Shown here: one piece after another, positions 1-47,216 of the stretch
How the letters are laid out: every line of letters begins with the position of its first letter
How positions within the stretch are numbered: the stretch's first letter is position 1
From: Rhodospirillaceae bacterium
GTDB lineage: Bacteria > Pseudomonadota > Alphaproteobacteria > Rhodospirillales > JABHCV01
Direction of reading: 5' to 3'
DNA length: 61,743 nucleotides
NCBI GenBank assembly: GCA_014382375.1
Contig: JACNJU010000039.1
Coordinates: forward strand, 1-61,743
The notes under the pieces: model-generated
Told to the model about the DNA's origin: nothing
The model's input: only the letters and a program-made list of their open reading frames with translations
The model's database searches: none
Position numbers and translations under genes: made by a program

Positions 1-292
1 TGACCACCACTTTCAGGTCGGGTCTGCTTAAAGCCAGGCCGGTGGCGAAAGCCAGTGGACGACCGTGGGTGACATGGAATGTATTGGCGTCTACATAAGC
101 ACCGATGCGCCCCGAACAGCCAATCCCGGAAACGATAGCCAGTTTATCGTTGCTGATCTCCAGTTCATGAACCGCCCACAACAGAGCCCGCAAGGCAATA
201 CCGTGCCCGCACCCAGGACACAGAAAATGCGGGAACATATCCTCACGCAAATAGTCACGGATGTTGAAGGATTCCAATGCTTGTTCACTCAT
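1..292 (-). CDS. 2-oxoacid:ferredoxin oxidoreductase beta subunit, partial (cut by window start)
   Basis: Reverse-strand reading gives an N-terminus with FPHFLCPGCGHG followed by IVSGIGCSGR and THGRPLAFATG. This is the start of the TPP-binding beta subunit of the KorB/VorB/PorB family; the CxGCG motif carries cluster or cofactor ligands. The ATG at 290-292 overlaps the stop of the alpha gene (289-291) in an ATGA arrangement, so the two subunits are translationally coupled. About 97 codons are visible. The Mg-TPP motif (GDGD...N) and C-terminus lie outside the window. The family is clear; the substrate (2-oxoglutarate, branched 2-oxoacids or arylpyruvates) cannot be told. Confidence 0.85.
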   Translation of the reverse strand, partial: MSEQALESFNIRDYLREDMFPHFLCPGCGHGIALRALLWAVHELEISNDKLAIVSGIGCSGRIGAYVDANTFHVTHGRPLAFATGLALSRPDLKVVV

Positions 293-1434
293 GCTCTGGA
301 TATCTCCTCTATTTTTTCGAGGATGGCCACCGGATCAATGACCTCGCCATCGATCCGGTTGATGCCGACGGCAGTCTGTTTAGCGCTCATCAGGCGTTCG
401 ATTTCCAGGATCAGCTGACCGGCATTCATTTCAGGCACAATGATGTGCGTAGCCTTTTTTGATGCCGCCCGGAACGCCACCACAGGAAACGGCCAAAGTG
501 TGATGGGACGGAACAGACCAACTTTCAGACCCTTGTCGCGCGCCTGTTGCTGGGCCCGAGCGGCTGCGCGGGCGCTGATGCCAACTGTGACGAGGATGAT
601 CTTGGCGTCCTTGCAGTCAATTTCTTCATAGGAGGCGATATCCGCCGCATGATGTTCCAGCTTGCCAAGACGGCGTGTGACCATGGCCTCAACCTGCCCT
701 GGATCCTGGGTCGGGAAGCCGCTTTCTGACGTGGTCAACCCGGTGGTATGGGCCCGGTACCCATCGCCGGGACGGGCCATCGCCGGGACCATGTCCTTGG
801 TTTTTTGATAAGGCAAGAATTCAGCGCTGGGGCCGCTCGCCCATTTCCGTTCGGCCTGTTCAATGGATTGGGGGCTTGGCAGTTCTACGGTTTCGACCAA
901 ATGGCCGATAACCTCGTCATAGATCACCACAACCGGCACCCGCAGGGTTTCTGTGAGCCAGAAGGCGCGAATCATTTCCTGATAGATTTCCTTTACCGAG
1001 CACGGCGCCAGCACGATCACCCCATGGTCGCCGTGGGTGCCCCATCTGGCCTGCATGATGTCGCCTTGTGCGGGGCGGGTCGGAAGACCGGTGCTGGGAC
1101 CACCACGCATGACGTTGACCACAACACAGGGAATTTCGGCACCAGCGGCATAGCCAAGATTTTCCTGCTTTAGGGAAAAACCCGGACCACTGGTTGCCGT
1201 CATTGCCTTGGAGCCACCCATGGAAGCGCCCAAAATCGCACCCATAGAGGCGATTTCGTCTTCCATCTGAATGAAAATTCCATCGACCTTTGGCAATTCA
1301 AGCGACATCTTTTCGGCAATTTCCGAAGACGGCGTGATCGGGTAGCCGGCAAAAAAGCGGCAACCGGCGGCGATCGCACCCATGGCGCAGGCGTGGTTGC
1401 CTTGTAAATTCTGAAGTTGGCCGGTTGCTCTCAT
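289..1434 (-). CDS. 2-oxoacid:ferredoxin oxidoreductase alpha subunit (KorA/VorA type, 381 aa)
   Basis: Separate alpha subunit that pairs with the overlapping beta gene to oxidise a 2-oxoacid to its acyl-CoA, reducing ferredoxin. The pyrimidine-binding domain is at residues 1-190 (GYPITPSSEI, QMEDEIASMGA, TSGPGFSLKQE, RGGPSTGLPT). The transketolase-C-like domain II follows at about 255-375 (VTVGISARAAARA, LFRPITLWPFP, EMNAGQ). There is no fused gamma domain, unlike the KorA at 42 kb. I chose ATG 1434, 2 bp after the upstream stop, because a longer reading would run into the ferredoxin domain of the preceding gene. The family is sure; the substrate is unknown. Confidence 0.9.
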   Translation of the reverse strand: MRATGQLQNLQGNHACAMGAIAAGCRFFAGYPITPSSEIAEKMSLELPKVDGIFIQMEDEIASMGAILGASMGGSKAMTATSGPGFSLKQENLGYAAGAEIPCVVVNVMRGGPSTGLPTRPAQGDIMQARWGTHGDHGVIVLAPCSVKEIYQEMIRAFWLTETLRVPVVVIYDEVIGHLVETVELPSPQSIEQAERKWASGPSAEFLPYQKTKDMVPAMARPGDGYRAHTTGLTTSESGFPTQDPGQVEAMVTRRLGKLEHHAADIASYEEIDCKDAKIILVTVGISARAAARAQQQARDKGLKVGLFRPITLWPFPVVAFRAASKKATHIIVPEMNAGQLILEIERLMSAKQTAVGINRIDGEVIDPVAILEKIEEISRA

Positions 1435-1436
1435 AG

Positions 1437-2309
1437 TTATGCACTCATTTTCTGTACTGAAGGTCTGATCACGTCGATGGCGAAATCCGGGCACAACCAT
1501 TCACAGACCCGACATCCCGTACAGCGTTCCGGATGAATTAATTCAACAAGTTGTTCCGCGTCCAGTGCAAGACAGCGTTCCGGGCACATCTTGACGCAAA
1601 TATCGCAGCCCTTGCACCACTCGCGGGTCAGGCGAAGCTCAAAATCATCATTGGCCTGAATTTCCGGAATAACCGTTTTAAGTTGCGGGGCAAGCGGCTC
1701 GGAAATGGTTTCATCTTTCGCCTGTTCGGCCCAGGCCCGGCCTTTAAGAAAAGCCTGGCGATTAATGTCGATGGTTTTTGGCGGCACGAAATCAGAAATC
1801 ACCTGCAGCCATTCATCGACGTCAAAATCCAGCGCCGTTGACAGAGTTCCAAGCAGCACCGTGTTCGAGGCCCGCAAATTACCAAGGTCTGAAGCCATGG
1901 TCGTTGCGTCCAGGGCTAGTCCATTGGCAACTTCGGCGACGATTTGCTCAGGCGTTTCCTTTGAATAAACCTTGTCCGCTCCACGCTTGCGGTTAAGACA
2001 GGCAAAGGGTGGCACAATATGTTGGGTATCGGTGATGTAGGTGCCGTTGGTCGGCTCAAGGTAATTCAGCCAGCGCAAGCCTTCGGCCCACTCAAGGGAC
2101 AACAGCACATCGGCTTCCCCGGCCGGGATTGTCGGTGACCAGACCTGCTCGCCAAAACGAACATGACTGAAGACAGAACCGCCCCGTTTGGCCATTCCGT
2201 GAACTTCGCTTTGCTTGACCTGATAGCCATGCATCTGACACAACGTCGCCAGCACCTTAGAGACCATAATGACACCCTGACCGCCGACCCCAACGATCAA
2301 CACGTTCAT
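1437..2309 (-). CDS. iorB: Indolepyruvate oxidoreductase beta/gamma-type subunit fused to 2x[4Fe-4S] ferredoxin
   Basis: Residues 1-185 form the gamma-type domain of IorB/KorC (VGVGGQGVIMVSKVL, SEVHGMAKRGGSV). The C-terminal ~65 residues form a bacterial ferredoxin with two clusters, CKGCDICVKMCP and CTGCRVCEWLCP. Ordinary IorB (~200 aa) lacks this tail, which may be the electron exit for IorA and perhaps also for the following KorAB-like pair, which has no gamma subunit of its own. ATG 2309 starts directly at the Rossmann-like MNVLIVGVGGQG. An in-frame ATG at 2339 would add ten residues and is possible. It lies 51 bp after iorA in the same operon. Confidence 0.85.
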   Translation of the reverse strand: MNVLIVGVGGQGVIMVSKVLATLCQMHGYQVKQSEVHGMAKRGGSVFSHVRFGEQVWSPTIPAGEADVLLSLEWAEGLRWLNYLEPTNGTYITDTQHIVPPFACLNRKRGADKVYSKETPEQIVAEVANGLALDATTMASDLGNLRASNTVLLGTLSTALDFDVDEWLQVISDFVPPKTIDINRQAFLKGRAWAEQAKDETISEPLAPQLKTVIPEIQANDDFELRLTREWCKGCDICVKMCPERCLALDAEQLVELIHPERCTGCRVCEWLCPDFAIDVIRPSVQKMSA

Positions 2310-2360
2310 CGTTTTCACTTCAGATGCCTGATTTCTCATGGAGTTCTCTACTTTACGGAC

Positions 2361-4187
2361 TTAATGAACTTCGGCTTCAAGCGGACGGATGCTGTCAGCG
2401 GGACAAACCTGCGCGCAAAGAGAGCAGCCGATACAGGCGTCCTGATCGATTTTGACCTTGTGATGACCATCGTACCATTCATCAGACCAAGACAGAGCCG
2501 GACAGCCTAGGTTCATGCATGATTGACAGGCGACACAGTTTTCAGAAATGACCGTAAGAGACGGCCCCTTGACCTTGACCGGGTCAAGTACGCAAGGCCT
2601 GTCAGAAATAACCACGGAAACGCCCTTGAATTCGGCGGCCTCACGGAATGTCTGGTACATGGTGGCGACGTCATAGCTGTCGATTTTCTTAACCCAGGTC
2701 ACACCAATGGCGTTGATCAGTTTCTCAAAATCAATACGATGGGTTTCTTCCCCCCGAAGCGTCTTACCCGTCGCCGCGTGGTTCTGGCCGCCGGTCATGG
2801 CAGTGATGTGGTTGTCGAGCAGGATCACCGTAATATCGACTTCGTTATAGACGGCATCGATCAAGGCCGGAATTCCCGAATGCAGGAAGGTCGAATCGCC
2901 GATGGTGGCAATGATCGGCTTGCTTTCCAAACCCGCCTTGGCGACGCCGATGGCATTGCCAATACTGGAACCCATGGAGACACAGGTATCGATGGATCTC
3001 AGCGGTTCAACAGCGGCCAGGGTATAACAGCCGATATCGCCCATGACACGGCCATTCATGGCCCTGATCGCCATGTAACCCGACGTATGGGGACAGCCAG
3101 CACAAAGCACCGGCGGCCTGGGGGTAATCCGCTGATCATGGGCCGGGGCAAGATCACGTTTTTCCAAAACACCGGCCGCCTCTAGACCCTGACGAACAAT
3201 TTCAGGAGAAAATTCACCGACCCGGGAGAAATATTTTTTGCCTTCCACGGCAAAACCCATAACCTTGATTTCGTCTTCAACAACCGGCTCCAGCTCTTCA
3301 ACAACCAGAACCCGGTCAACGGATTTGCAGAAATCGGCAATCAGTTTATCGGGCAAGGGATAGGACGCGCCCAACTTTAAAATGCTTGCGTCGCTGATGG
3401 ATTCCTTAACGTAGGCATAGGACGTGGCCATGGTGATGATGCCAATGTCCTTGCGGCCCTTTTCCCATTTATTGATGCCCGAGGTAGCAAAATGTTCCTT
3501 CAGCTTTTCCTCGCGTTCGATCAATTGCGGATGACGGACGCGGGCATTGTTGGGCATCATGACGTTCTTGGAAGGATTGTCGACAAAGCCCTTTGATGGT
3601 TTTTCAACGCGCTTGCCGACTTTGACGGTACTGCGGGTATGAGACAGGCGGGTTGTTGAGCGGACGATAACCGGGGTGTCAAAATCTTCACTCAGGTCAA
3701 AGGCAAGTTTTGTATAATCGAGCGCTTCCTGGGCATCGGAAGGGTCTAGGCACGGAACCATGGCGAATTTTGCAAAGACCCGTGAATCCTGTTCGTTCTT
3801 GGAAGAATGAATGCCCGAATCACCACAAACAATTAGAACCAGCCCGCCGTTAACGCCGATGTAAGTGACTGACATCAGGGCGTCCGAAGCCACATTCAGG
3901 CCCACATGCTTCATGGATGTCATCGCCCGCACTCCTGCGAAGGACGCGCCAATGGCAACATCACAGGCAACTTTTTCATTGGTTGCCCATTGCGCCGCAA
4001 CATCCTCGCTGGGGTACTTGGACAAGTTTTCCATAATTTCAGTGCTTGGCGTTCCAGGGTACGCAGAGCCCACTCTGACACCGGCTTCCCACGCGCCACG
4101 CGCAAGCGCCTCGTTACCCGTCATCGGGCGCTGACTGTCTTTTTTACTGTTTTTTTTCGTCGTCGTCTTCTTCACAAGATCATCCAT
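2361..4187 (-). CDS. iorA: Indolepyruvate:ferredoxin oxidoreductase alpha subunit (608 aa)
   Basis: IorA-family subunit oxidising arylpyruvates to aryl-acetyl-CoA with ferredoxin as acceptor. The N-terminal pyrimidine domain carries GNEALARGAWEAGV, YPGTPSTEI and MKHVGLNVASDALM. The C-terminal half carries CAGCPHTSG, GDIGCYTLAA and the TPP motif IGDSTFLHSG with LLDNHITAMTGGQ. The last 70 residues hold a ferredoxin domain (CVACQSCMNLGCP and CIGCSLCAQVCP). An N-terminal extension of about 22 Lys/Thr-rich residues precedes the conserved start. ATG 4187 has GGCGAGG at fair spacing; upstream codons (to 4220) have no better site. First gene of the minus operon, with a perfect FNR-type box about 125 bp upstream. 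Confidence 0.92.
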   Translation of the reverse strand: MDDLVKKTTTKKNSKKDSQRPMTGNEALARGAWEAGVRVGSAYPGTPSTEIMENLSKYPSEDVAAQWATNEKVACDVAIGASFAGVRAMTSMKHVGLNVASDALMSVTYIGVNGGLVLIVCGDSGIHSSKNEQDSRVFAKFAMVPCLDPSDAQEALDYTKLAFDLSEDFDTPVIVRSTTRLSHTRSTVKVGKRVEKPSKGFVDNPSKNVMMPNNARVRHPQLIEREEKLKEHFATSGINKWEKGRKDIGIITMATSYAYVKESISDASILKLGASYPLPDKLIADFCKSVDRVLVVEELEPVVEDEIKVMGFAVEGKKYFSRVGEFSPEIVRQGLEAAGVLEKRDLAPAHDQRITPRPPVLCAGCPHTSGYMAIRAMNGRVMGDIGCYTLAAVEPLRSIDTCVSMGSSIGNAIGVAKAGLESKPIIATIGDSTFLHSGIPALIDAVYNEVDITVILLDNHITAMTGGQNHAATGKTLRGEETHRIDFEKLINAIGVTWVKKIDSYDVATMYQTFREAAEFKGVSVVISDRPCVLDPVKVKGPSLTVISENCVACQSCMNLGCPALSWSDEWYDGHHKVKIDQDACIGCSLCAQVCPADSIRPLEAEVH

Positions 4188-4311
4188 TGCGCCTCGCCAC
4201 TGGCAAAACCAAATTACCAAAATCGATATTGGAGATGTCTAAAGAAACCCAACGGCAACCCCCAGCATTGCCGACAGACTTATTGTTTAACCGAGCCTAC
4301 GAAACAGAGGC

Positions 4312-4445: not shown

Positions 4446-5189
4446 TTGCAGCAGCCTCAATTAGTGGAAGACCCACTTAGCGAACATCGCGTCGACATGG
4501 CAGCAGCTTTTCGCTGGACAGCGCGCCTGAACATGCACGAAGGCATCGCCAATCATTTCAGCCTCGCTGTTTCAGACGATGGATCTAAATTTCTGCTCAA
4601 CCCATACGGTCGACATTTCTCGAAAATGCGGGCTTCTGACCTTTTGCTTATCAACGCCAATGATCCGGCTATGGGCGAGCGAGACGACATCGACCCCACG
4701 GCCTGGTGCATTCACGGTGCCATGCACAGGAACAACCCCGGTGCCCGTTGCATCATGCATGTGCATTCGAAATTCGTCACCGCGCTGGCCAGCCTCAAGG
4801 ACAGCTCGATGCCGCCCATCGACCAGAACACCATGCGTTTCTATAACCGCATCGCCGTTGATGACGGGTTTGACGGTATGGGCATGGGCGATGAAGCCGA
4901 ACGCCTGAGTACGGTCATGGGCAACAAGCGCCTGGCGATCATGGGTAATCACGGGGTTATGGTTATCGGCAATTCGGTAGCCGAAGTTTTCGACGACATG
5001 TATTACTTCGAGCGGGCCTGTGAAACCCTGATTACGGCCCTGTCCACGGGCCGGGAATTGCGTATCGCTTCGCCCGAAGTGGCGGAGAAAACGGCCCAGC
5101 AATTCGAGAACTATCCCGGCTTCGCCGAACGCCATCTGGCCGCCCTGAAAGATATCCTCGACAGTGAAGAGCCAGATTACCGGGACTAG
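4446..5189 (+). CDS. Class II aldolase/adducin-family protein (247 aa)
   Basis: Zn-dependent class II aldolase/epimerase fold, as in fuculose-phosphate aldolase, ribulose-phosphate epimerase and decarboxylases. Zinc-binding histidines are visible in IMHVHSKFV and in GNHGVMVIG, the hallmark spacing of the family. Further motifs are MHEGIANHFS near residue 30 and SKMRASDLLLIN near 60. The start is TTG at 4446, because AGGAG lies 8 bp upstream; the next ATG (4497) has no ribosome-binding site and would remove conserved sequence. The stop overlaps the stop of the convergent DMT gene. Substrate unknown. Confidence 0.85.
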   Translation: MQQPQLVEDPLSEHRVDMAAAFRWTARLNMHEGIANHFSLAVSDDGSKFLLNPYGRHFSKMRASDLLLINANDPAMGERDDIDPTAWCIHGAMHRNNPGARCIMHVHSKFVTALASLKDSSMPPIDQNTMRFYNRIAVDDGFDGMGMGDEAERLSTVMGNKRLAIMGNHGVMVIGNSVAEVFDDMYYFERACETLITALSTGRELRIASPEVAEKTAQQFENYPGFAERHLAALKDILDSEEPDYRD

Positions 5190-6238
5190 GCCTGCTCGAC
5201 TTTTCGTGGCCTGACCAATGCCAACGCGACAAGCATGATCGCCAGCGAGACCCATATAAAGTACGAGTGCTTTTCGTCAAAAATCAAGACGCCCCAGAAA
5301 ACGCCCGAAAAAGTCACCACATAGGCGGTCTGGCTGGCGAAAACCGGTCCTGCGTGGGTGATTAAAAATATAAACATACTGTAGGCGGCAACGCTGATGA
5401 TCGCCATCCCGATGATCGCCCACTCAACAGGTCCCCATGGCCAGATCAACGGAACGAAGGTGCCCGTTGCAATGACAAACGGGATCATGATGGCGGTTGC
5501 GGCAATAAACAGGCCGCCAGTAATCGTCGTCGCATTGACATTGCTGGGCATGTGCAAGGCGACAACCATATTCTCGCCCGCATAACAGACCGAAGCAATC
5601 AATGCCACCAACACCCACGGCACGGCACTTCGGTCAGGCAAGCTTTCTTCGGGCCCGACCAGCAACAGAATTGAAAGCCCGCCAAAAATAACGCCCAGAA
5701 TTCGGCCAAGCTGGAACTTTTCAATGCCCAAAAAGGCCGCAGCGACAAATGTCAAAAGCGGCACGGTGGCCACCGTGATCGACAGAATTCCTGGTGAAAC
5801 CCTTGAAGCGGCATAAAAAAACAAAATGCCCGGGATTATCGATCCCAGCATACCGCAGGCCATATAAAACAGAATATTTTCCCGTTTCATGGGCAACCTG
5901 CGACCGGTCACCAACATCACCGTGATCAAAGCAATAGCGCCAATCATCGACTGCCAGAAATTAATCCCCAACGGATGGCCACCGCCTTCGGCGGCAATTT
6001 TGGCAAGCGAAAATGTCGCCCCCCATAGCACCCCCATAACCAGCAGCAGTATCCACGCACGGGCGCGGCCAAGGGTGCTTTTGCCTAAATCCGGTTCAAT
6101 AATTTCTTCTGGCGAAAGAAAAGCGGCGCTAACCGCTTGTTCCGCGACTTCGGGGCCGTAGGCCTGTGATGTATCTGGCTTCTCTTCCACGGCCCACTGT
6201 CCTGAAACGTATATATGTGAAACTTCAGATTTGACCAA
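5186..6238 (-). CDS. EamA/DMT-family inner-membrane permease (350 aa)
   Basis: Ten-helix drug/metabolite transporter made of two EamA repeats. The first runs from WILLLVMGVLWGATFSLAK (about residue 63) to LLLVG; the second begins at WVLVALIASVCYAGEN. It likely exports or imports a small metabolite. A ~57-residue acidic N-terminal extension precedes the first helix, longer than usual. The only in-frame start covering it is TTG 6238 with a weak ribosome-binding site, so the true start is uncertain. It lies 40 bp after the PhnD-like gene and is probably co-transcribed with it. Confidence 0.8.
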   Translation of the reverse strand: MVKSEVSHIYVSGQWAVEEKPDTSQAYGPEVAEQAVSAAFLSPEEIIEPDLGKSTLGRARAWILLLVMGVLWGATFSLAKIAAEGGGHPLGINFWQSMIGAIALITVMLVTGRRLPMKRENILFYMACGMLGSIIPGILFFYAASRVSPGILSITVATVPLLTFVAAAFLGIEKFQLGRILGVIFGGLSILLLVGPEESLPDRSAVPWVLVALIASVCYAGENMVVALHMPSNVNATTITGGLFIAATAIMIPFVIATGTFVPLIWPWGPVEWAIIGMAIISVAAYSMFIFLITHAGPVFASQTAYVVTFSGVFWGVLIFDEKHSYFIWVSLAIMLVALALVRPRKVEQA

Positions 6239-7723: not shown

Positions 7724-7743
7724 AAAAAGTGGGAGGCAAGTCT

Positions 7744-9282
7744 GTGGCAAAACGAACCCGAGCACGCGCGAGAACCGGAAGCCGAAGAGAAGGCGGCAAG
7801 AGCTTTCAGCAGCTCCCCTTCAGGCAACCGCAAAATCCCTATCAGCCATTCAATATTATTTCTGACGATGAAGTTGAAGCGCTACATAACACATCCCTTG
7901 ATGTTCTCGAAGAACTCGGCATCAATTTCCTACTTGAAGAAGCGCGCGAAATTCTAAAGAACGCCGGTGCCGATGTGCGCCCCGGCGATCCCTGCGTGCG
8001 CTTTGATCGGGGGTTGATTGAGCAATCAATCAAGACGGCGCCCAAACAATTCACCGGATACGCCCGCAACCCGGCCCACAATCTGGAATACGGCGGAAAT
8101 CATACAGTTTTCTGTATGGTCTCCAGCCCGCCCAATGCCACAGATATGGATAAAGGGCGCAGGCAGGGGAGTATGGAAGACTACAGTAATTTTGTCCGCC
8201 TCGGCCAAAGCCTCAACATCGTCCACCAGCTTTCGGGTTATCCGGTCGAACCGACCGACATCGAAACCCCGATCCGCCATCTCGTGGCCGAGCAGGCGAT
8301 GATCAAGTTGTGCGACAAAATTGGTTACGGCTACTGCCTGAATCGCCAAAGAATCAGAGATTCCATCGAAATGGTGCGTATTGGACGTGGCATCAGCAAC
8401 GAACAAATGCTGAGCGAGCCTTCGATCTTCACTGTCGTCAACGCCAATTCACCGCGCCAGTACGATGTCGCCATGTTGGGCGGTATCATTGAAATGGCGC
8501 GCATGAACCAGCCGGTCGTCATCACCCCATTTACGTTGGCCGGTGCCATGGCTCCGGTAACGGTGGCTGGTGCTATTGTCCAGCAAAATGCCGAAGCGTT
8601 GGCTGGCATCGCCTTTTTGCAGATGGTTAATCCCGGGGCCCCGGTGCTGTACGGCGGCTTTACCTCCAACGTCGATATGCGCACCGGCTCGCCAGCATTC
8701 GGTACTCCTGAATATGCCAAGGCAGTGCTGATTGGTGGCCAATTGTCACGACGCTATGGCATTCCGTATCGTTCTTCAAACGTCAACGCATCCAACGCAC
8801 CGGACGTACAGGCGGCCTACGAGTCGCAAATGTCGATCTGGCCGTGCATTTTGAGCCACTGCAATATGATCAAACATGCACTGGGATGGCTTGAAGGTGG
8901 GCTTTCGGCATCTTTCGAAAAGGTCATCATTGATGCCGAAATGTTACAAATGATGTCCGAGTTTATGCAACCGCTGACCATCAACATGAATGAAATGGCC
9001 ATGGAAGCCATCCGCGAAGTCGAGCCCGGCGGTCATTACTTTGGCTGCGCCCACACCATGGAACGATTTGAAAACGCCTTTTACAGCCCGATCCTGTCTG
9101 ACTGGAGCAATTTTGAGAACTGGCGAGATAATGGTTCCATCGATGCCACAACGCGGGCCAATACAATTTATAAGAAATTGCTCGAGAACTACCAGCAACC
9201 CCCCTTTGATAAATCTATTGAAGAGGAACTGGATGCTTTCGTTGAACGCCGTATCGCTGAAGGTGGAGCAAGGGAAAACTAG
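7744..9282 (+). CDS. Trimethylamine methyltransferase (MttB/COG5598) family protein without pyrrolysine (512 aa)
   Basis: TIM-barrel methyltransferase of the MttB superfamily. Typical motifs are DVLEELGINF near residue 45, VRFDRGLIEQSI near 90, PFTLAGAMAPVT in the middle and GGHYFGCAHTMERF near the end. There is no in-frame amber codon, so it is not the pyrrolysine trimethylamine enzyme. Non-Pyl members include glycine betaine, carnitine and proline-betaine corrinoid methyltransferases. No corrinoid protein (MttC-like) is encoded in the window. GTG 7744 is chosen because GGGAGG lies seven bases upstream. The first 25 residues are strongly basic. Confidence 0.85.
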   Translation: MAKRTRARARTGSRREGGKSFQQLPFRQPQNPYQPFNIISDDEVEALHNTSLDVLEELGINFLLEEAREILKNAGADVRPGDPCVRFDRGLIEQSIKTAPKQFTGYARNPAHNLEYGGNHTVFCMVSSPPNATDMDKGRRQGSMEDYSNFVRLGQSLNIVHQLSGYPVEPTDIETPIRHLVAEQAMIKLCDKIGYGYCLNRQRIRDSIEMVRIGRGISNEQMLSEPSIFTVVNANSPRQYDVAMLGGIIEMARMNQPVVITPFTLAGAMAPVTVAGAIVQQNAEALAGIAFLQMVNPGAPVLYGGFTSNVDMRTGSPAFGTPEYAKAVLIGGQLSRRYGIPYRSSNVNASNAPDVQAAYESQMSIWPCILSHCNMIKHALGWLEGGLSASFEKVIIDAEMLQMMSEFMQPLTINMNEMAMEAIREVEPGGHYFGCAHTMERFENAFYSPILSDWSNFENWRDNGSIDATTRANTIYKKLLENYQQPPFDKSIEEELDAFVERRIAEGGAREN

Positions 9283-39545: not shown

Positions 39546-40493
39546 ATGGGTTCCACGTCGAGCGAAAGAACAGACTTACAAAAAGCTTTCAATACATCCC
39601 CTGGGCTTGAGGATGAGTCCGCTGTCGAGATCATCAGGCGGGAAGATTTTTCTGACGTCACATTCATGCTTGAGTTCCATCACCCGATGATGGCGAAGGC
39701 TGCAAAGCCGGGCCAGTTTGTCATCGTCATTCCCCAGGAACACGGTGAGCGCATCCCCCTTACAATCGCAGATTTTGATCGCAAAAAAGGAACAGTAACA
39801 CTTGTCATCCAGGCCGTCGGCAAGACGACCAAAGAGATGCAACAAACCTGCCATAGAGGGACACCGCTTTTCGGTGTCGTCGGCCCCATGGGAACGCCGA
39901 GCCACATAGGAAACAACAAAAAGGTTGTTTGTGTTGGCGGTGGCCTCGGCGTGGCGCCTGTATTCCCGCAGGCACGCGCCTTTAAAGAAAGTGGCGCCTA
40001 TGTGATTGGCGTCATCGGCTTTAGAAACAAGGAATTGGTCTTTTGGGAGGAAAAATTCAGAAAATACTGCGATGAATTTATTATCTGCAGTGATGATGGT
40101 TCCGTCGGCATCAAGGGACTGGTCACCGATGGCATCAAGCTGGCTCTGAAAAAGCACACTGATATTGACGAGGTCGTCGCCATCGGGCCGCCGATCATGA
40201 TGAAAGCCTGCGCAGAAACAACCCGCCCGGCGAACATTAAAACGACCGTCAGCCTGAATCCGATCATGGTTGATGGAACCGGCATGTGTGGCGGCTGCCG
40301 GGTGAAAATCGGTGAAGGCATCAAGTTTGCTTGCGTCGATGGACCCGATTTCGACGGCCATCAGGTCGATTTCGACGATCTTATGAACCGGCTAAAACGC
40401 TTTAATGAAGATGAGAAAAAAGCCCTGGAGCGTTGGTCCGTAAGTTGTCGGATCAGGGGTAAAGAAGCGCCGCCTACCGGACCGAGGTTGTGA
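39546..40493 (+). CDS. nfnA: NfnA-like ferredoxin:NAD(P)+ oxidoreductase small subunit (315 aa)
   Basis: FNR-fold flavoprotein with a [2Fe-2S] site, as in NfnA, PyrK and SudB. It has the FAD-domain motif KPGQFVIVIP...IPLTIADFD at 55-80, NAD-site VVCVGGGLGVAPVFPQARA near 120 and the cluster motif GTGMCGGCRVKIG...FACVDGP near 240-265. With NfnB it can couple NADH, NADPH and ferredoxin, possibly by bifurcation. The N-terminus is about 25 residues longer than usual. GGAGGTGATCC (39532-39542), an exact anti-16S match, precedes ATG 39546. The stop overlaps nfnB (TGATG). Confidence 0.86.
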   Translation: MGSTSSERTDLQKAFNTSPGLEDESAVEIIRREDFSDVTFMLEFHHPMMAKAAKPGQFVIVIPQEHGERIPLTIADFDRKKGTVTLVIQAVGKTTKEMQQTCHRGTPLFGVVGPMGTPSHIGNNKKVVCVGGGLGVAPVFPQARAFKESGAYVIGVIGFRNKELVFWEEKFRKYCDEFIICSDDGSVGIKGLVTDGIKLALKKHTDIDEVVAIGPPIMMKACAETTRPANIKTTVSLNPIMVDGTGMCGGCRVKIGEGIKFACVDGPDFDGHQVDFDDLMNRLKRFNEDEKKALERWSVSCRIRGKEAPPTGPRL

Positions 40494-41998
40494 TGGCCAA
40501 GAAGAAAACCATACGCACGATCCCGCAGGAACGAACGCCGATCGCGCATCAGGACCCCGGTAAACGGATTAAAAACTTCGACGAAGTCGCCTTGGGCTAC
40601 GGGTTGGAAGATGCCCTAAACGAGTCTGAGCGGTGCCTTATGTGTCCCGAAACACAGTGCATTCCCGGCTGTCCCGTCAGCATCGACATACCAGGTTTTA
40701 TCGCAAAAATTACCGCCAAGGATTACCGCGGTGCTTACGATGTGCTGACGCAGTCAAACCTGTTACCGGCAATTTGTGGGCGCGTTTGCCCGCAGGAAGA
40801 TCAGTGTGAAGGGCTGTGCACTGTTGGCGATACGCTGGAGCCGGTGGCCATCGGCAGACTTGAACGCTGGATCGGTGATATGGCCATAAGCGAGGGATGG
40901 AGCAACATTCCCTATAGGGAACCCAATGGTTTTCGCATTGGCATCGTCGGGTCTGGCCCAGCCGGAATTGCCTGTGCGGCGGATATGGCAAAGGCCGGCT
41001 GTGACGTCACCGTCTTTGAAGCATTCCACAAACCTGGCGGGGTCCTAAGATACGGTATTCCGGAATTCAGGCTGCCAAACGCTGTTATCGATGCCGAGAT
41101 TGACGCCTTGAGCAAACTGGGCGTCAGGATCAAGTGCAATACCCTGGTCGGGCGCTTGTTCACACTTGAACAAATGCGCAATGAAATGGGATTTGACGCC
41201 GTCTTTGTCGGCACCGGCGCTGGCTATCCGAGCTTCATGGATATTCCCGGGGAATCGCTTAATGGGGTGCTTTCGGCTAACGAGTTACTGACCCGGTGCA
41301 ATCTTATGCACGCGGGTGAGTTTCCTGACTACGACACCCCTTTGCATTTGGGCCAAAGGATTGCCGTCATCGGATCAGGCAACACGGCCATGGATGCGAT
41401 GCGGGTATGCCTGCGCCTTGGGGCGGCGAACGTTCACTGCGTTTATCGGCGCACCAGGAACGAAAGTCCGGCCCGGGTCGAGGAAATTGACCATGCCGAG
41501 GAAGAGGGTGTCGAATTCCACTGGTTGGCTGCCCCGGTTGAAATTCTGGGTGACGACCAGAATAACGTCCGTGGAATGCGCTGCATTCGCATGGAGCTTG
41601 GTGAACCCGACGAGTCTGGACGCTGTCGCCCTGTTCCCGTGCAAGGCAGCGAGTTCGAGTTCGAGGCCGATATGATCGTTTATGCCATCGGCACCAACGC
41701 CAATCCGATCATTGGCCAGACATCAAAATTAAAGCTCAACAAGTGGGGCTACCTCGCAACCGATGATACTCTCGCTACATCAATGGCTGGCGTTTATGCC
41801 GGCGGCGATATCGTTACCGGCGGGGCCACTGTAATCCTGGCCATGGGTGCCGGTCGAAAGGCTGCATCAAGCATGAAAAAGTACCTCGGTATTCGCGACA
41901 CAGATTCTCTCCACTCCACAGAGATCGACGACACCATAACCACCCTGTTTGGCATTGATACCCGCGAGAAAAACTTCGCCCGGGTCCGCATCGCCTGA
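40493..41998 (+). CDS. nfnB: NfnB-like NADPH-dependent flavoprotein (glutamate-synthase small-chain type, 501 aa)
   Basis: N-terminal double [4Fe-4S] domain (ESERCLMCPETQCIPGCPV near 45 and ICGRVCPQEDQCEGLC near 95), then FAD- and NADP-binding Rossmann folds (IGIVGSGPAGIACAADMA near 145; IAVIGSGNTAMDAMR near 290) and the terminal GGDIVTGGATVILAMGAGR. This matches NfnB/SudA. The ATG at 40493 overlaps the nfnA stop; GTG 40490 is an alternative. Next to KorAB it probably links 2-oxoacid oxidation to NADPH, recalling the three-part 2-oxoglutarate:NADP+ oxidoreductases of aromatic-degrading betaproteobacteria. Confidence 0.88.
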   Translation: MAKKKTIRTIPQERTPIAHQDPGKRIKNFDEVALGYGLEDALNESERCLMCPETQCIPGCPVSIDIPGFIAKITAKDYRGAYDVLTQSNLLPAICGRVCPQEDQCEGLCTVGDTLEPVAIGRLERWIGDMAISEGWSNIPYREPNGFRIGIVGSGPAGIACAADMAKAGCDVTVFEAFHKPGGVLRYGIPEFRLPNAVIDAEIDALSKLGVRIKCNTLVGRLFTLEQMRNEMGFDAVFVGTGAGYPSFMDIPGESLNGVLSANELLTRCNLMHAGEFPDYDTPLHLGQRIAVIGSGNTAMDAMRVCLRLGAANVHCVYRRTRNESPARVEEIDHAEEEGVEFHWLAAPVEILGDDQNNVRGMRCIRMELGEPDESGRCRPVPVQGSEFEFEADMIVYAIGTNANPIIGQTSKLKLNKWGYLATDDTLATSMAGVYAGGDIVTGGATVILAMGAGRKAASSMKKYLGIRDTDSLHSTEIDDTITTLFGIDTREKNFARVRIA

Positions 41999-42016: not shown

Positions 42017-43984
42017 ATGACCCCACAGGCCCTAAAAAAAGAAAAACCCGCCGTTCGGCAGCCTCAGGAACGCCCGCAGAAATCCGGCAAGCGTTCACCA
42101 TCCGGGGGAAAGCCTCAACGGGGATCGTTGAAAGAGAAACCCGTACAGGAATTGCGCGAACATATCGTTGAAGTGATCAGTGATTCCGGCGAGGGTGCAC
42201 AACGCTGTGGCCAGTCCATGGCCTCCATCGCGGCCCGAATGGGAAACGGGATTTGGACAGTCGAAATTATCCCGGCCGAAATTCAACCACCGGCACGAAG
42301 CATCGCCGGGGGTAGCGGTAACCGCGTTCGCCTGGCCTCGGATCGGGTTACCAACGGTGGCGACGAAGCTGAATTGGTCGTCGCTTTCAACGAGCAAGTC
42401 CTTCTGGGGCGCATTCATGCGCACGAGCTAAGTCCCGGCTGTACGATCCTGATAGAAAACAAATGGCGGGACGATGACGATGCTGAAATTGTCGCGGCCT
42501 ATACCCGGACCATCGGGGAACTGGAGGAAAGTGGTTACGATATCCAGGAAATTCCTATGGAAAGAGAATGCCTGAAATACGTCGCCGACCCAAAGCGTGG
42601 CAAGAACATGTTTGTTCTGGGCATGTTGTGCAGCATCTACAGCCTGGACATGCAGATTGCCCGTGAACAGGTTGCCTTCATCTTCGCCAAAAAGGACCAG
42701 AACATCATTGACAACAATATTCAGCTTCTTGAAGCGGGGTTCGACTGGGCGGAAGCTAATCTCACATTCAAGTACTGTATCCCGCCATCACCGATGACCG
42801 AGCCACAAATCGTCGTCAACGGTAACGTTTCTCTTGGCCTTGGCATTATGGCTTCGGGCATGGAAGTTTGCGCCATGTATCCGATTACACCGGCGACTTC
42901 GGTTTCCCATTACCTGAGCGAGGTTTTTGAAACCGTTGGCGGTGTCGTCCATCAGGCCGAAGACGAAATAGCCGCCTGCGCTTTTGCCATTGGCGCCTCC
43001 TACGCCGGAAAGTGCGCGGTGACCATCACTTCTGGACCGGGCCTGGCCTTGAAGCAGGAAACAATTGGTCTTGCCGTGATGGCGGAGATCCCCCTGGTCG
43101 TTGTCGATGTTCAGCGTGGCGGCCCCAGCACCGGCTTGCCGACAAAGACTGAACAGGGAGACCTGTTGTTTGCGTGCTTCGGTGGCCATGGCGACAATCC
43201 CAAGGTGGTGATGGCTGTGTCCGACATTGAGGATTGCTTTTATTCGATGATCACCGCACGAAAGATCGCCGAAACCTTCAATACCGTCGTCGTCGTTTTG
43301 ACAGATGCAAGTTTGGCATCGGCCCAGCAACCCTTTCCGCGCCCGGTCATCAGCGAAGACTGGATGGCACCACCGGTCGATCAAAGCGAAATTTCAGCGG
43401 GCCTTGTTCCCTATGACTGGGATCATCGAACGGGTCTTGCGCGTCGCTTTATCCCCGGACAACCGGGCGGCATGCATTGCCTGACCGGCCTTGCCCATGA
43501 TCGCAAGAGCTGCGTCGCCTATGATTCTGACACCAATCAGGATGGTATGCAGCACCGCAGCCTCAAATTGGCGGCTTTGCAGAAAACATTGAAAACGCCG
43601 CCCGTCTTCGGCGACAGCGAGGGCGACCTGCTGATCGTCAGCTGGGGAAGTACAAAGGGCGCGGTCGAAGAAGCGGTGACACGGTTGCAGGACGATGGTC
43701 ACAAGGTGTCGTCCTTGCACCTTCGGTTTATCCAGCCCATGCCATCAGGGATCAAGGACGTGTTAAAGGGCTTTAAGCACGTGATGACGGTAGAAGGCAA
43801 CTGGTCAGACAATCTGGATCACGAAATTATCGACGAAGAAAATCGACGCTATTCGGAACTCGCCTGGCTCCTGCGGGCCCGGTTCCTGGTAGACGTAGAC
43901 TGTTGGACGGAAGTCCGCGGACGTCCCATTAAGCCGGGATCTGTCGTCCGTGCCGCCCATCAGCGACTGCAACGGAAGGAATGA
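42017..43984 (+). CDS. korA: 2-oxoacid (2-oxoglutarate):ferredoxin oxidoreductase, fused gamma-alpha subunit (655 aa)
   Basis: Gamma domain at about 60-250 (GEGAQRCGQSMASIAARM; VAFNEQVLLGRIHAHELSPG) fused to the alpha pyrimidine domain (CAMYPITPATSVSHYL, QAEDEIAACAFAIGAS, TSGPGLALKQE, RGGPSTGLPT) and transketolase-C-like end. This is the KorA layout of mycobacteria and Thauera. Residues 1-45 form a Lys/Pro/Gln-rich, probably disordered extension. It overlaps korB by 4 bp (ATGA). CoA-dependent oxidative decarboxylation, or the reverse carboxylation, is expected; 2-oxoglutarate is the usual substrate. Confidence 0.88.
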   Translation: MTPQALKKEKPAVRQPQERPQKSGKRSPSGGKPQRGSLKEKPVQELREHIVEVISDSGEGAQRCGQSMASIAARMGNGIWTVEIIPAEIQPPARSIAGGSGNRVRLASDRVTNGGDEAELVVAFNEQVLLGRIHAHELSPGCTILIENKWRDDDDAEIVAAYTRTIGELEESGYDIQEIPMERECLKYVADPKRGKNMFVLGMLCSIYSLDMQIAREQVAFIFAKKDQNIIDNNIQLLEAGFDWAEANLTFKYCIPPSPMTEPQIVVNGNVSLGLGIMASGMEVCAMYPITPATSVSHYLSEVFETVGGVVHQAEDEIAACAFAIGASYAGKCAVTITSGPGLALKQETIGLAVMAEIPLVVVDVQRGGPSTGLPTKTEQGDLLFACFGGHGDNPKVVMAVSDIEDCFYSMITARKIAETFNTVVVVLTDASLASAQQPFPRPVISEDWMAPPVDQSEISAGLVPYDWDHRTGLARRFIPGQPGGMHCLTGLAHDRKSCVAYDSDTNQDGMQHRSLKLAALQKTLKTPPVFGDSEGDLLIVSWGSTKGAVEEAVTRLQDDGHKVSSLHLRFIQPMPSGIKDVLKGFKHVMTVEGNWSDNLDHEIIDEENRRYSELAWLLRARFLVDVDCWTEVRGRPIKPGSVVRAAHQRLQRKE

Positions 43985-44955
43985 CGATTATGTCAATGCC
44001 AATCGCCGAATGCGCCTTGCGCCTTCTTGAAGAAGAACATCCCATTGACGACTATAAAGGGCGTGTTCCACGGTGGTGCACCGGCTGTGGAGACAACGCC
44101 ATCCTGGCGGCCGTGCAACGCCTGTGCCGGGATGAACAACTGGCCCCCGAAAAGACCGTCTTCGTCTCTGGGATTGGTTGTTCCAGCCGCTTCCCCCATT
44201 ACATGAACACCTATGGTTTTCACGGTCTCCACGGCCGGGCCATGCCCGTCGCCCAGGGAATTAAAATGCGACGACCGGATTTGCATGTTTTTGTTGTTAC
44301 CGGCGATGGTGATTGCTGTTCGATTGGCACTGCACACTGGATTCACGCGTTGCGCTACAACATGAATATGACCGTCCTGATGCATGACAATGGTATTTAC
44401 GGCTTAACCAAAAACCAGGCCTCGCCAACATCCCCGCAAGGACTTAAAAGCAAAACGACACCAAGCGGCACGCTCCTTGAACCGATTAATCCGGTCAGTG
44501 TCAGTCTTGGCATCCGAAACGCTTCGTTTGTAGCACAGGCTGTCGATTGGATTCCTGACATGCTGTACGACATTATCGAGGCGGCTTTCCACCATAAGGG
44601 ATTTTCCTTCGTACGCATTCTGCAAAGGTGCCCCGAATTCCTGCCGGGCAGGTTTGATGAATGGGTGAAAGACCCCTCGCGCATGTTGCTGCTTAACCAT
44701 GACGACGGCGTAAAAGTCAGGCCGGAACTGGGAAAGGTATATCAAAATCTGGAACAGCACGATCCATCAGATCGCAACAGGGCCCGCGAAATTGCATCAA
44801 CCTATCATCCAATGCCGGTTGGCGTTCTGTATCGTAATCAGGAAATGCCCTGCTACGAGGATCTTCGAAAACCCGACAGATTGTATACACCCGACGTTAT
44901 TAAAAGTGTGCTTGAGAAGGAGTTCGATCAATTCACGATTCACCCAGCGGCCTGA
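43981..44955 (+). CDS. korB: 2-oxoacid:ferredoxin oxidoreductase beta subunit (324 aa)
   Basis: TPP-binding beta subunit: PRWCTGCGDNAILAAVQ near 30, SGIGCSSRFPHYM near 63, the Mg-TPP motif VTGDGDCCSIGTAHWIHA near 105 with NMTVLMHDNGIYGLTKNQ, and FVRILQRCPEF near 210. No ferredoxin domain is fused, so electrons leave through a cluster to an external acceptor. ATG 43981 sits within the end of korA; ATG 43990 is a close alternative. Confidence 0.9.
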   Translation: MTIMSMPIAECALRLLEEEHPIDDYKGRVPRWCTGCGDNAILAAVQRLCRDEQLAPEKTVFVSGIGCSSRFPHYMNTYGFHGLHGRAMPVAQGIKMRRPDLHVFVVTGDGDCCSIGTAHWIHALRYNMNMTVLMHDNGIYGLTKNQASPTSPQGLKSKTTPSGTLLEPINPVSVSLGIRNASFVAQAVDWIPDMLYDIIEAAFHHKGFSFVRILQRCPEFLPGRFDEWVKDPSRMLLLNHDDGVKVRPELGKVYQNLEQHDPSDRNRAREIASTYHPMPVGVLYRNQEMPCYEDLRKPDRLYTPDVIKSVLEKEFDQFTIHPAA

Positions 44956-45005: not shown

Positions 45006-47216
45006 ATGAATCAAATTCATTCACCAATGTCGACGTTTCATTTCACCGGACAAATATCCGGCGGCGATCTTTTTGAGATTGGGCGGCGCGGTTTTCAACC
45101 GGCATTACTCAGTGGCTACGGCGACTTATCAAAACTCCGCTATGATTTTCCCTTGGTCCTGTTCAAGGAAGGCAACGGCGCGCCCTGTATTCGCTCCCTC
45201 TGCGATGTTGTTTCAGAAATACTGAACGAAAGTGCGCCCACTGGCATGGAGGGCGAGCGTCTGCGTAAGAGCGCGCTGCGTCTGGAAGAGGCAGTGCGGG
45301 TTCTGGTAAGGGACGGCAATAAGGGATCTTTAAGCGAACTATGGCAACAGGCCGAAAGCAACCTGTTGTCACAAAACGGCGGCGATGGCACACCAAAACT
45401 TGACGAGGAAATCCTCAAAACAATTCGCGATGCGCTGCCTGAAAACGGTGAGGTTATCGACTATGATGAGGACACCCCGGAAAAGGTCATGTCCCACGCG
45501 TGGAACACCGTTCAGGAAGAAAAGGCGCGCAAGTTTTCCCTGCGGCTCGATGAACTGACCCTTAAACTTATGAATATCCTTAAAGGCGACTCAATGAAGT
45601 CCGCCACTGCGTTTGATCCTGACGCCCTTAAAAGTGCGGTTGGCTCGTCTTATGAATCGGCTTTCGATTTTAATTCCATGTCCGACATTCTTGGCACGGC
45701 GTTTGTTCCTGGTGCCTTGCCTGAAAAACGCTGGCGTCGAATCCAGTCCGTTTTATCGACACTGAAGGCGCAAAAGTTTTTCCCTTCTATGAGTGGGAAA
45801 AATGGAAAGAAACGGCGGGAAAATACGCAAACCTATATTTTTGACCATTGTGCACCGGCTATGGAAGCGTTCCGCTTGCGATTGCCCAAAATGGTTAGCC
45901 TTGTCAAGGCAATGACAATCGCCCAGTTGGAAATTGAAAGCCGCTACAGGGAAGCTACACACGACCCGTTCTTCCGTAATTATGACGAGCGCTATCTGGA
46001 AGCCGATGATCTGGCAATGTTACCGGCCTATCTTATTTGTCTGCGCAACAGTACGGATGCCAAGGCTGAAAAAGCCGACCTGATTGAGGTACTCTCCTCG
46101 GGTCTTCCCATCAAGGTCCTGGCCCAAAACGATGATATCGTAGAGCAGTTATCGATTGCTTCGGGTAAGCTTTCGTTTGGTGTCAGGGGATCACAATTGG
46201 CCTCCATGGCGTTGGGTCTAAACGACGTCTTTATTCTTCAGGCCAGCGGTGCCGACCTGTACCGGATGCACCAGAGTATCCTTAATGGATTGACCCACCG
46301 TGGTCCGGCCCTGTTCAGCGTTTATTCCGGGCAATCGGGAAAACGAACGCGCACTGCCAAAAACACCCCCGAGAAGCCACTCTATCTGCGGGCGGCGGCG
46401 GCAACGGATTCGCGCGCATGTCCTGTCTTTGTCTACGACCCGGGTGCCGGGGATGATTGGGAATCCCGTTTCCTGGTCGACGGCAACCCACAACCCGAAA
46501 GGGACTGGCCGGTTTATGAATTCGGCTACGAAGATAAAGACATGCAAAGGTTCTCGGAGATGATTGCTTTTACCTTCGTCGACTTCGTCGCCATGGATGA
46601 TCGATATGGCAAGCGCTTTGCCGGTGTTCCCAGGTCCGAATGGAACGACCTGATGGTTCCGGCAAGCACGTTCATGGAATTGGACGATACGACAGCGGCA
46701 GGGAAAGTCCCTTATATCCTGATGATTGACGAAAATAATGACCTTCACCGGGTGATCGTCGAGGCCAGATTGATTCAGGCCGCACGGGGATGCCAGGAAA
46801 TGTGGCAAAATCTTCGGGAATTGGGCGGCATCGATAATTCCTACGCCAGGAAGGCCTTGGCCGCTGAAAAGGAAAACAGGGAAGCCCAACCTGAGCAGAT
46901 CGCAGCCTTAAGTGATGACGTAGAGACCGATGTGGAGAGTGTCAGCGAAGAATTCACAGCGCCGTCGTCCGATGAGCCCTATATCGAAACGCCCCGCTGC
47001 ACCACCTGTGAGGAATGCGTGGAAATTAACAATAAGATGTTCCTCTATGACGACAACAAACAAGCTTATATTGCCGACCTGAACGCCGGCACATACAAGC
47101 AGTTGGTGCAAGCCGCCGAAAGTTGCCAAGTGGCAATCATCCATCCGGGAAAGCCCATTAATCCCAATGAGCCGAACCTAAAAGAACTAATGGCGCGGGC
47201 CGAGTCCTTTAACTAA
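45006..47216 (+). CDS. Unknown 736-aa protein with C-terminal single-cluster ferredoxin motif
   Basis: Follows korB by 50 bp in the same direction. Residues 1-350 are mainly helical and charged with no motif known to me. Residues ~395-540 (SGKLSFGVRGSQ, NGLTHRGPALFSVYSG, RACPVFVYDPGAG, WPVYEFGYE) recall the layout of the substrate/docking arms of pyruvate:ferredoxin oxidoreductases but lack a TPP motif. After an acidic linker (~620-655), the end has CTTCEECVEINNKMF...AESCQVAIIHPG, a CxxCxxC...C [4Fe-4S] ferredoxin signature. No signal peptide. It may be a dedicated electron carrier or scaffold for KorAB/NfnAB. ATG 45006 is chosen; MSTFHF at 45027 has no ribosome-binding site. Function not assigned. 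Confidence 0.75.
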   Translation: MNQIHSPMSTFHFTGQISGGDLFEIGRRGFQPALLSGYGDLSKLRYDFPLVLFKEGNGAPCIRSLCDVVSEILNESAPTGMEGERLRKSALRLEEAVRVLVRDGNKGSLSELWQQAESNLLSQNGGDGTPKLDEEILKTIRDALPENGEVIDYDEDTPEKVMSHAWNTVQEEKARKFSLRLDELTLKLMNILKGDSMKSATAFDPDALKSAVGSSYESAFDFNSMSDILGTAFVPGALPEKRWRRIQSVLSTLKAQKFFPSMSGKNGKKRRENTQTYIFDHCAPAMEAFRLRLPKMVSLVKAMTIAQLEIESRYREATHDPFFRNYDERYLEADDLAMLPAYLICLRNSTDAKAEKADLIEVLSSGLPIKVLAQNDDIVEQLSIASGKLSFGVRGSQLASMALGLNDVFILQASGADLYRMHQSILNGLTHRGPALFSVYSGQSGKRTRTAKNTPEKPLYLRAAAATDSRACPVFVYDPGAGDDWESRFLVDGNPQPERDWPVYEFGYEDKDMQRFSEMIAFTFVDFVAMDDRYGKRFAGVPRSEWNDLMVPASTFMELDDTTAAGKVPYILMIDENNDLHRVIVEARLIQAARGCQEMWQNLRELGGIDNSYARKALAAEKENREAQPEQIAALSDDVETDVESVSEEFTAPSSDEPYIETPRCTTCEECVEINNKMFLYDDNKQAYIADLNAGTYKQLVQAAESCQVAIIHPGKPINPNEPNLKELMARAESFN

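Follow-up and report, generated by a model that had tools for sequence, protein, structure and literature searches.

A ferredoxin-tailed protein derived from the C-terminal half of PFOR, with the pattern of a pseudoenzyme, is encoded behind the Nfn and Kor genes of Proteobacteria

What does a large protein contribute that is encoded at the end of an operon for low-potential redox enzymes? The question arises in a 61,743-nucleotide stretch of DNA from a Rhodospirillaceae bacterium (contig JACNJU010000039.1 of assembly GCA_014382375.1; hereafter the window), where an ATG-started ORF at positions 45006..47216 of the + strand encodes a 736-aa protein, here called X. X is the final gene of a five-gene run on this strand, nfnA-nfnB-korA-korB-X, whose members overlap by 4 bp or are separated by short gaps; 50 bp lie between korB (43981-44955) and X.

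X is a real gene, far beyond chance, since an orthologue that is 87% identical occupies the equivalent position in a sister genome, more than 70 further records contain orthologues over the full length, and the whole-gene dN/dS against the sister orthologue is ~0.13, indicating purifying selection. Constraint was strongest in the ferredoxin region (dN/dS 0.046) and in residues 281-430 (0.053) and weakest in a linker at residues 621-658 (0.40). Many invariant residues lie within the body of the protein. Promoter and terminator scans remained at chance level. X evolves faster than korA, korB and nfnB, as might be expected of a pseudogene in decay or of a passenger gene that closes the operon. 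That explanation is refuted by conservation and almost certainly wrong: dN/dS is 0.13, all Cys of the tail are invariant, and the gene has been kept across Alpha-, Beta- and Gammaproteobacteria.

X follows a complete Nfn and a complete, apparently functional Kor enzyme, judging by matches to Nfn and OGOR proteins and by intact KorB motifs. nfnA (39546..40493, + strand) encodes the FAD/[2Fe-2S] subunit that binds NAD(H) and matches the small subunit of P. furiosus NfnI (5jca_S, E 1.8e-93), and nfnB (40490..41998, +) encodes the GltD-like FAD/2x[4Fe-4S] subunit (T. maritima NfnB 4ylf_B, E 6.7e-163). Aligned to 5jca and 4ylf, NfnA has the Asp plus three Cys pattern DGTGMCGGC...C of the [2Fe-2S] site, whose Asp is a cluster ligand, and NfnB is of the GltD type. 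The pair are homologues of the crystallised electron-bifurcating Nfn, and bifurcation is predicted here too. korA (42017..43984, +) encodes the fused gamma and alpha parts of a 2-oxoacid:ferredoxin oxidoreductase built from two subunits (TIGR03710 above its cut-off; Magnetococcus marinus OGOR 6n2n_A, E 1.5e-83), and korB (43981..44955, +) the TPP/[4Fe-4S] subunit (TPP_enzyme_C and PFO_beta_C), with GDG...N intact, a CxxC and all four cluster Cys present (C33, C36, C67 and C217). The nearest solved relative of KorA is OGOR, and the substrate of KorAB is probably 2-oxoglutarate.

Elsewhere in the window, a second 2-oxoacid oxidoreductase cluster lies at 289-4220 on the - strand. One of its products, of 403 aa, is of the alpha type and has POR_N. 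Judged by eye, a second product (300 aa) resembles a gamma subunit that ends in a 2[4Fe-4S] tail, and a third (619 aa, with POR_N) resembles an indolepyruvate-type subunit with ferredoxin motifs. A 517-aa protein at 7729-9282 (+) resembles, by eye, the MttB/trimethylamine-methyltransferase superfamily.

The one part of X that family libraries recognise is its C-terminus. No Pfam or NCBIfam model scored above cut-off on residues 1-655, and NCBIfam had none on X at all. Pfam Fer4_13 matched residues 664-713 (E 7.7e-6; 27.0 bits against a gathering cut-off of 24.5), and the Pfam outcome was the same, a Fer4_13 tail alone, for 13 orthologues. This bears out the C-terminal CxxCxxC...C cluster motif that a preliminary description of the locus had reported. 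The motif reads C665-x2-C668-x2-C671-x35-C707; all four Cys, and the spacing of 35 between the third and fourth, are kept in 79/79 X proteins. The tail matches D. africanus ferredoxin I (1fxr) in sequence (E 9.3e-5) and in fold (rmsd 1.8 over 59 columns), and the Cys pattern together with the matching fold places it in Fer4_13. Residues 659-736 (46980..47213, +) are therefore described here as a single-cluster [4Fe-4S] ferredoxin domain, predicted to bind its cluster and transfer electrons. This domain is joined to the body by residues 621-658 (46866..46979, +), the fast-evolving, length-variable linker, which is gappy in the alignment and partly of low confidence in the structural model (pLDDT <50 at 638-651).

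The origin of the body became clear through much longer proteins. A search for relatives of X in 317 genomes of the window's order returned orthologues and, as weaker matches, long proteins that aligned to X residues 280-736. These giants are open frames of 1,500-1,650 aa with POR_N, PFOR_II, POR, ferredoxin and TPP domains, and they match solved PFORs. Their alignment with X is collinear throughout, and hhalign matched X residues 9-736 to the C-terminal half of giant PFOR-type enzymes (1,500-1,960 aa) with a probability of 100% (E 1.3e-76). The giants also carry a C-terminal single-cluster ferredoxin in loci L048 and L033 (found by Pfam) and L032 (found by alignment). Because direct searches of the PDB with X or its profile matched ferredoxin I only, these giants were needed as intermediates to recognise the kinship with PFOR.

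Structure agrees with this. The AlphaFold2 model of X, built from 68 sequences (pLDDT 84.3, pTM 0.76), had only PFORs as its best Foldseek matches (E 3e-6 to 6e-4), and VIA-align 2 placed model residues 47-608 on PFOR (6cin) residues 691-1170 (Z 18.3, rmsd 5.4 over 270 residues). The loose PFOR-likeness noted in the preliminary description for the central part of X is upheld by the giants' alignment, hhalign, Foldseek and the structural alignment together. The statement that X belongs to no recognisable family has to be given up: by profile and fold, nearly all of X is a degenerate PFOR domain V-VI module. Pfam found no match in X to domains I-III (POR_N, PFOR_II, POR). X descends from the C-terminal half of a giant PFOR, namely domains V and VI with the appended single-cluster ferredoxin. 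Residues 1-280 (45006..45845, +) are the remnant of domain V and the start of domain VI, and residues 281-620 (45846..46865, +) are the remnant of domain VI, the TPP-binding fold, which the fold match follows up to PFOR residue 1170.

A quick tree set the X proteins clearly apart from the PFOR comparators except for one row, G_L153. This row, also present in the motif count, is apparently in the wrong frame (a 722-aa ORF was used because it is the longest there, but the matching frame is 553 aa), so the valid PFOR comparators number eleven, not twelve.

The giants at L048, L032 and L033 are 1,629-1,961 aa long. That at L048 is followed by an rnfC-like gene in an apparent rnf operon, and that at L033 lies behind an rnfB-like start. 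Also at L033, on the Gemmatirosa plasmid NZ_CP007129.1, an ORF of ~360 aa (~4561-5650) between korB and an rnfB-like gene looked by eye like a degenerate domain VI; it was rejected, as BLAST and HMM searches gave no match.

A column-by-column motif count of 79 X proteins against the eleven valid PFOR comparators revealed which cofactor sites survived. The comparators keep the core motifs, and seven of the eleven have the C-terminal ferredoxin. None of the 79 X proteins retains a complete Cys set for even one of the three core [4Fe-4S] clusters. Both ferredoxin-type motifs of domain V are missing in all 79, largely through deletion, as is the first Cys of the TPP-proximal CxxC; the second Cys of this motif is present in 77 of them, the X of the window not being among these, and alone cannot hold a cluster. 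The TPP/Mg motif GDG...N, kept in the PFOR comparators, is likewise lost from every X protein, and deletions have removed the PFOR stretches that carry the TGC segment and the second of the ferredoxin motifs. At X residue 153 (45462-45464), 77/79 proteins have a single Cys in the context EV(I/V)DC, and the window and the sister genome have Tyr.

Since the core cluster Cys sets and the TPP motif are lost and the tail Cys are kept, X has the sequence pattern of a PFOR-derived pseudoenzyme with a tethered ferredoxin, in which selection on cofactor binding would act on the electron-carrying tail alone. One could argue that a remodelled domain VI still allows X to act as an enzyme or to bind a ligand such as CoA or a 2-oxoacid. 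The low dN/dS of residues 281-430 (0.053) and the many invariant body residues would fit such an activity. With the TPP/Mg motif gone in 79/79, the Cys ligands lost and the second-ferredoxin-motif and TGC-segment stretches deleted, we consider it highly improbable.

The genomic setting of X is conserved. A scan of genome contigs with the single X sequence found nothing; an alignment used as query retrieved 284 relatives, and 80 of these were retained. At 57 of 88 distinct loci the full nfnA-nfnB-korA-korB-X run is present in the same order and on the same strand. Another 26 loci preserve between one and three upstream genes beside X, again in the same order, and at five X stands alone, which is consistent with contigs that start just upstream of or inside X. 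None of these 31 incomplete loci shows another gene order, and those inspected stop at a contig edge. At every locus with enough upstream sequence, X lies directly 3' of korB. The tie to nfn and kor genes proposed in the preliminary description, with korB directly upstream, therefore extends to an operon conserved at 88 distinct loci. Among the 317 genomes of the order, 15 have a close KorB (E <= 1e-80) and all of these carry X; in the only further genome with X (G087), korB is cut by the contig end.

Beyond the five genes, no same-strand gene recurred near most X loci, where only small clusters were found, so X is the module's only ferredoxin-like carrier. The largest cluster of recurring neighbours is a gene, citrate-synthase-like by eye, on the opposite strand at seven loci. 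Six loci (L082, L097, L116, L125, L130 and L132) have a second, distant korA-korB (26-36% identity) near nfn-kor-X, some with a GltD-like gene. Records with X come mainly from Alpha-, Beta- and Gammaproteobacteria, with a few labelled otherwise, and nearly all are metagenome-assembled; a carrier among isolates is Photobacterium lipolyticum DSM 16190.

The position of X behind the Kor and Nfn genes and the retention of its ferredoxin tail suggest that it probably wires Kor to Nfn. The electron-transfer component suspected in the preliminary description gains support from the conserved operon and the one-to-one co-occurrence with KorB in the order. We give about an even chance to X being a catalytically dead, PFOR-derived accessory of KorAB whose tethered ferredoxin leads to NfnAB and replaces a diffusible one. 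The dead domain V-VI fold would serve as a docking platform by which X binds KorAB. KorAB would oxidise a 2-oxoacid, probably 2-oxoglutarate, with CoA, and the ferredoxin arm on its flexible linker would accept single electrons from the [4Fe-4S] cluster of KorB and deliver them to NfnB at one of its [4Fe-4S] clusters; the Nfn flavins would there make NAD(P)H. Electrons might also run in reverse. X would thereby be a dedicated, tethered substitute for diffusible ferredoxin. The data establish the ancestry of X, its cofactor-site losses, the retained ferredoxin Cys, the operon and the co-occurrence; we infer complex formation, electron path, direction and substrate. A stronger version, which we offer only tentatively, has the dead PFOR module recruited to connect a living 2-oxoacid oxidoreductase with an electron-bifurcating transhydrogenase. 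X would then be the hub, in structure and in electron flow, of a stable KorAB-X-NfnAB complex, and the oxidation of 2-oxoglutarate would power NADPH production in respiring Proteobacteria with no free ferredoxin involved.

X could instead work apart from Kor, as a free-standing electron carrier or a scaffold that serves NfnAB alone or else other enzymes of low potential. The ferredoxin tail by itself could suffice as an Nfn substrate, and a GltD-like gene follows some of the PFOR-type giants. This is improbable given that X lies directly behind korB wherever upstream sequence suffices, that close KorB and X are jointly present or absent in the order, and that the body of X is homologous to a KorB-type domain. 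A point against the wiring of Kor to Nfn is that the genome also encodes several other 2-oxoacid oxidoreductases and a 2-oxoglutarate dehydrogenase E1, so X might serve other partners.

Conservation of the operon also fits a maturation, protection or regulatory role. The main rival to wiring by X is a role in oxygen protection or stability. As such a subunit, the dead module would cap KorAB, and the ferredoxin cluster would be a redox switch for locking or releasing the complex. An enzyme sensitive to oxygen could thereby survive in Proteobacteria that are aerobic or denitrify. The encoded 2-oxoglutarate dehydrogenase E1, which makes an oxidative TCA cycle probable in this genome, speaks for it. 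There are two parallels: in D. africanus PFOR, oxygen stability has been linked to the C-terminal domain VII, and the nitrogenase of aerobes is protected by a ferredoxin-like (Shethna) protein. Moreover, the structural match between X and PFOR stops at chain residue 1169-1170, so the ferredoxin of X sits where domain VII would begin. As protection leaves the equal invariance of NfnAB in the operon unexplained, we regard it as unlikely.

No description of an X protein was found in the literature searched, and no family model searched covers its body. In the Riftia symbiont, a 'PFOR-like' gene was lowered together with a dimeric korAB (PMC11636981); this gene may be an expressed X orthologue. 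If the predicted complex is real, it represents a widespread, unannotated route for low-potential 2-oxoacid chemistry beside the ordinary oxidative TCA cycle of respiring Proteobacteria, and a clear case of one half of a redox enzyme, stripped of its cofactors, being reused as a wiring subunit. A testable function can thus be named for a family that current libraries know only by a 50-residue ferredoxin tail.

Compared with known systems, NfnA and NfnB of the window are closely homologous to the solved proteins of NADH-dependent ferredoxin:NADP+ oxidoreductase. The solved Nfn enzymes listed have two subunits, and here the nfn genes come linked with korAB and X. The encoded KorAB shares its two-subunit architecture with that of Magnetococcus marinus (6n2n), the closest solved relative of KorA. 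OGOR-type KorAB enzymes use a separate small ferredoxin, whereas here the operon encodes a PFOR-ferredoxin hybrid behind korB. With Desulfovibrio-type ferredoxin (ferredoxin I, 1fxr; Fer4_13), the tail of X shares C-x2-C-x2-C...C, sequence and fold; it differs in being tethered to a 650-residue PFOR-derived body and in having Gln-Val after the last Cys, not the usual Pro. With PFOR (6cin, 1b0p), and the giants especially, X is collinear over residues 9-736, shares the fold over 47-608 and has the appended ferredoxin in common. In contrast to PFOR, it lacks domains I-IV and the TPP motif, none of the three core [4Fe-4S] clusters has its Cys set left, and X is encoded separately, next to the genes of another KorAB that is complete. 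PFOR, Nfn, Kor and ferredoxin are kinds already known; what is new in X is a PFOR-derived ferredoxin subunit stripped of catalytic cofactor sites.
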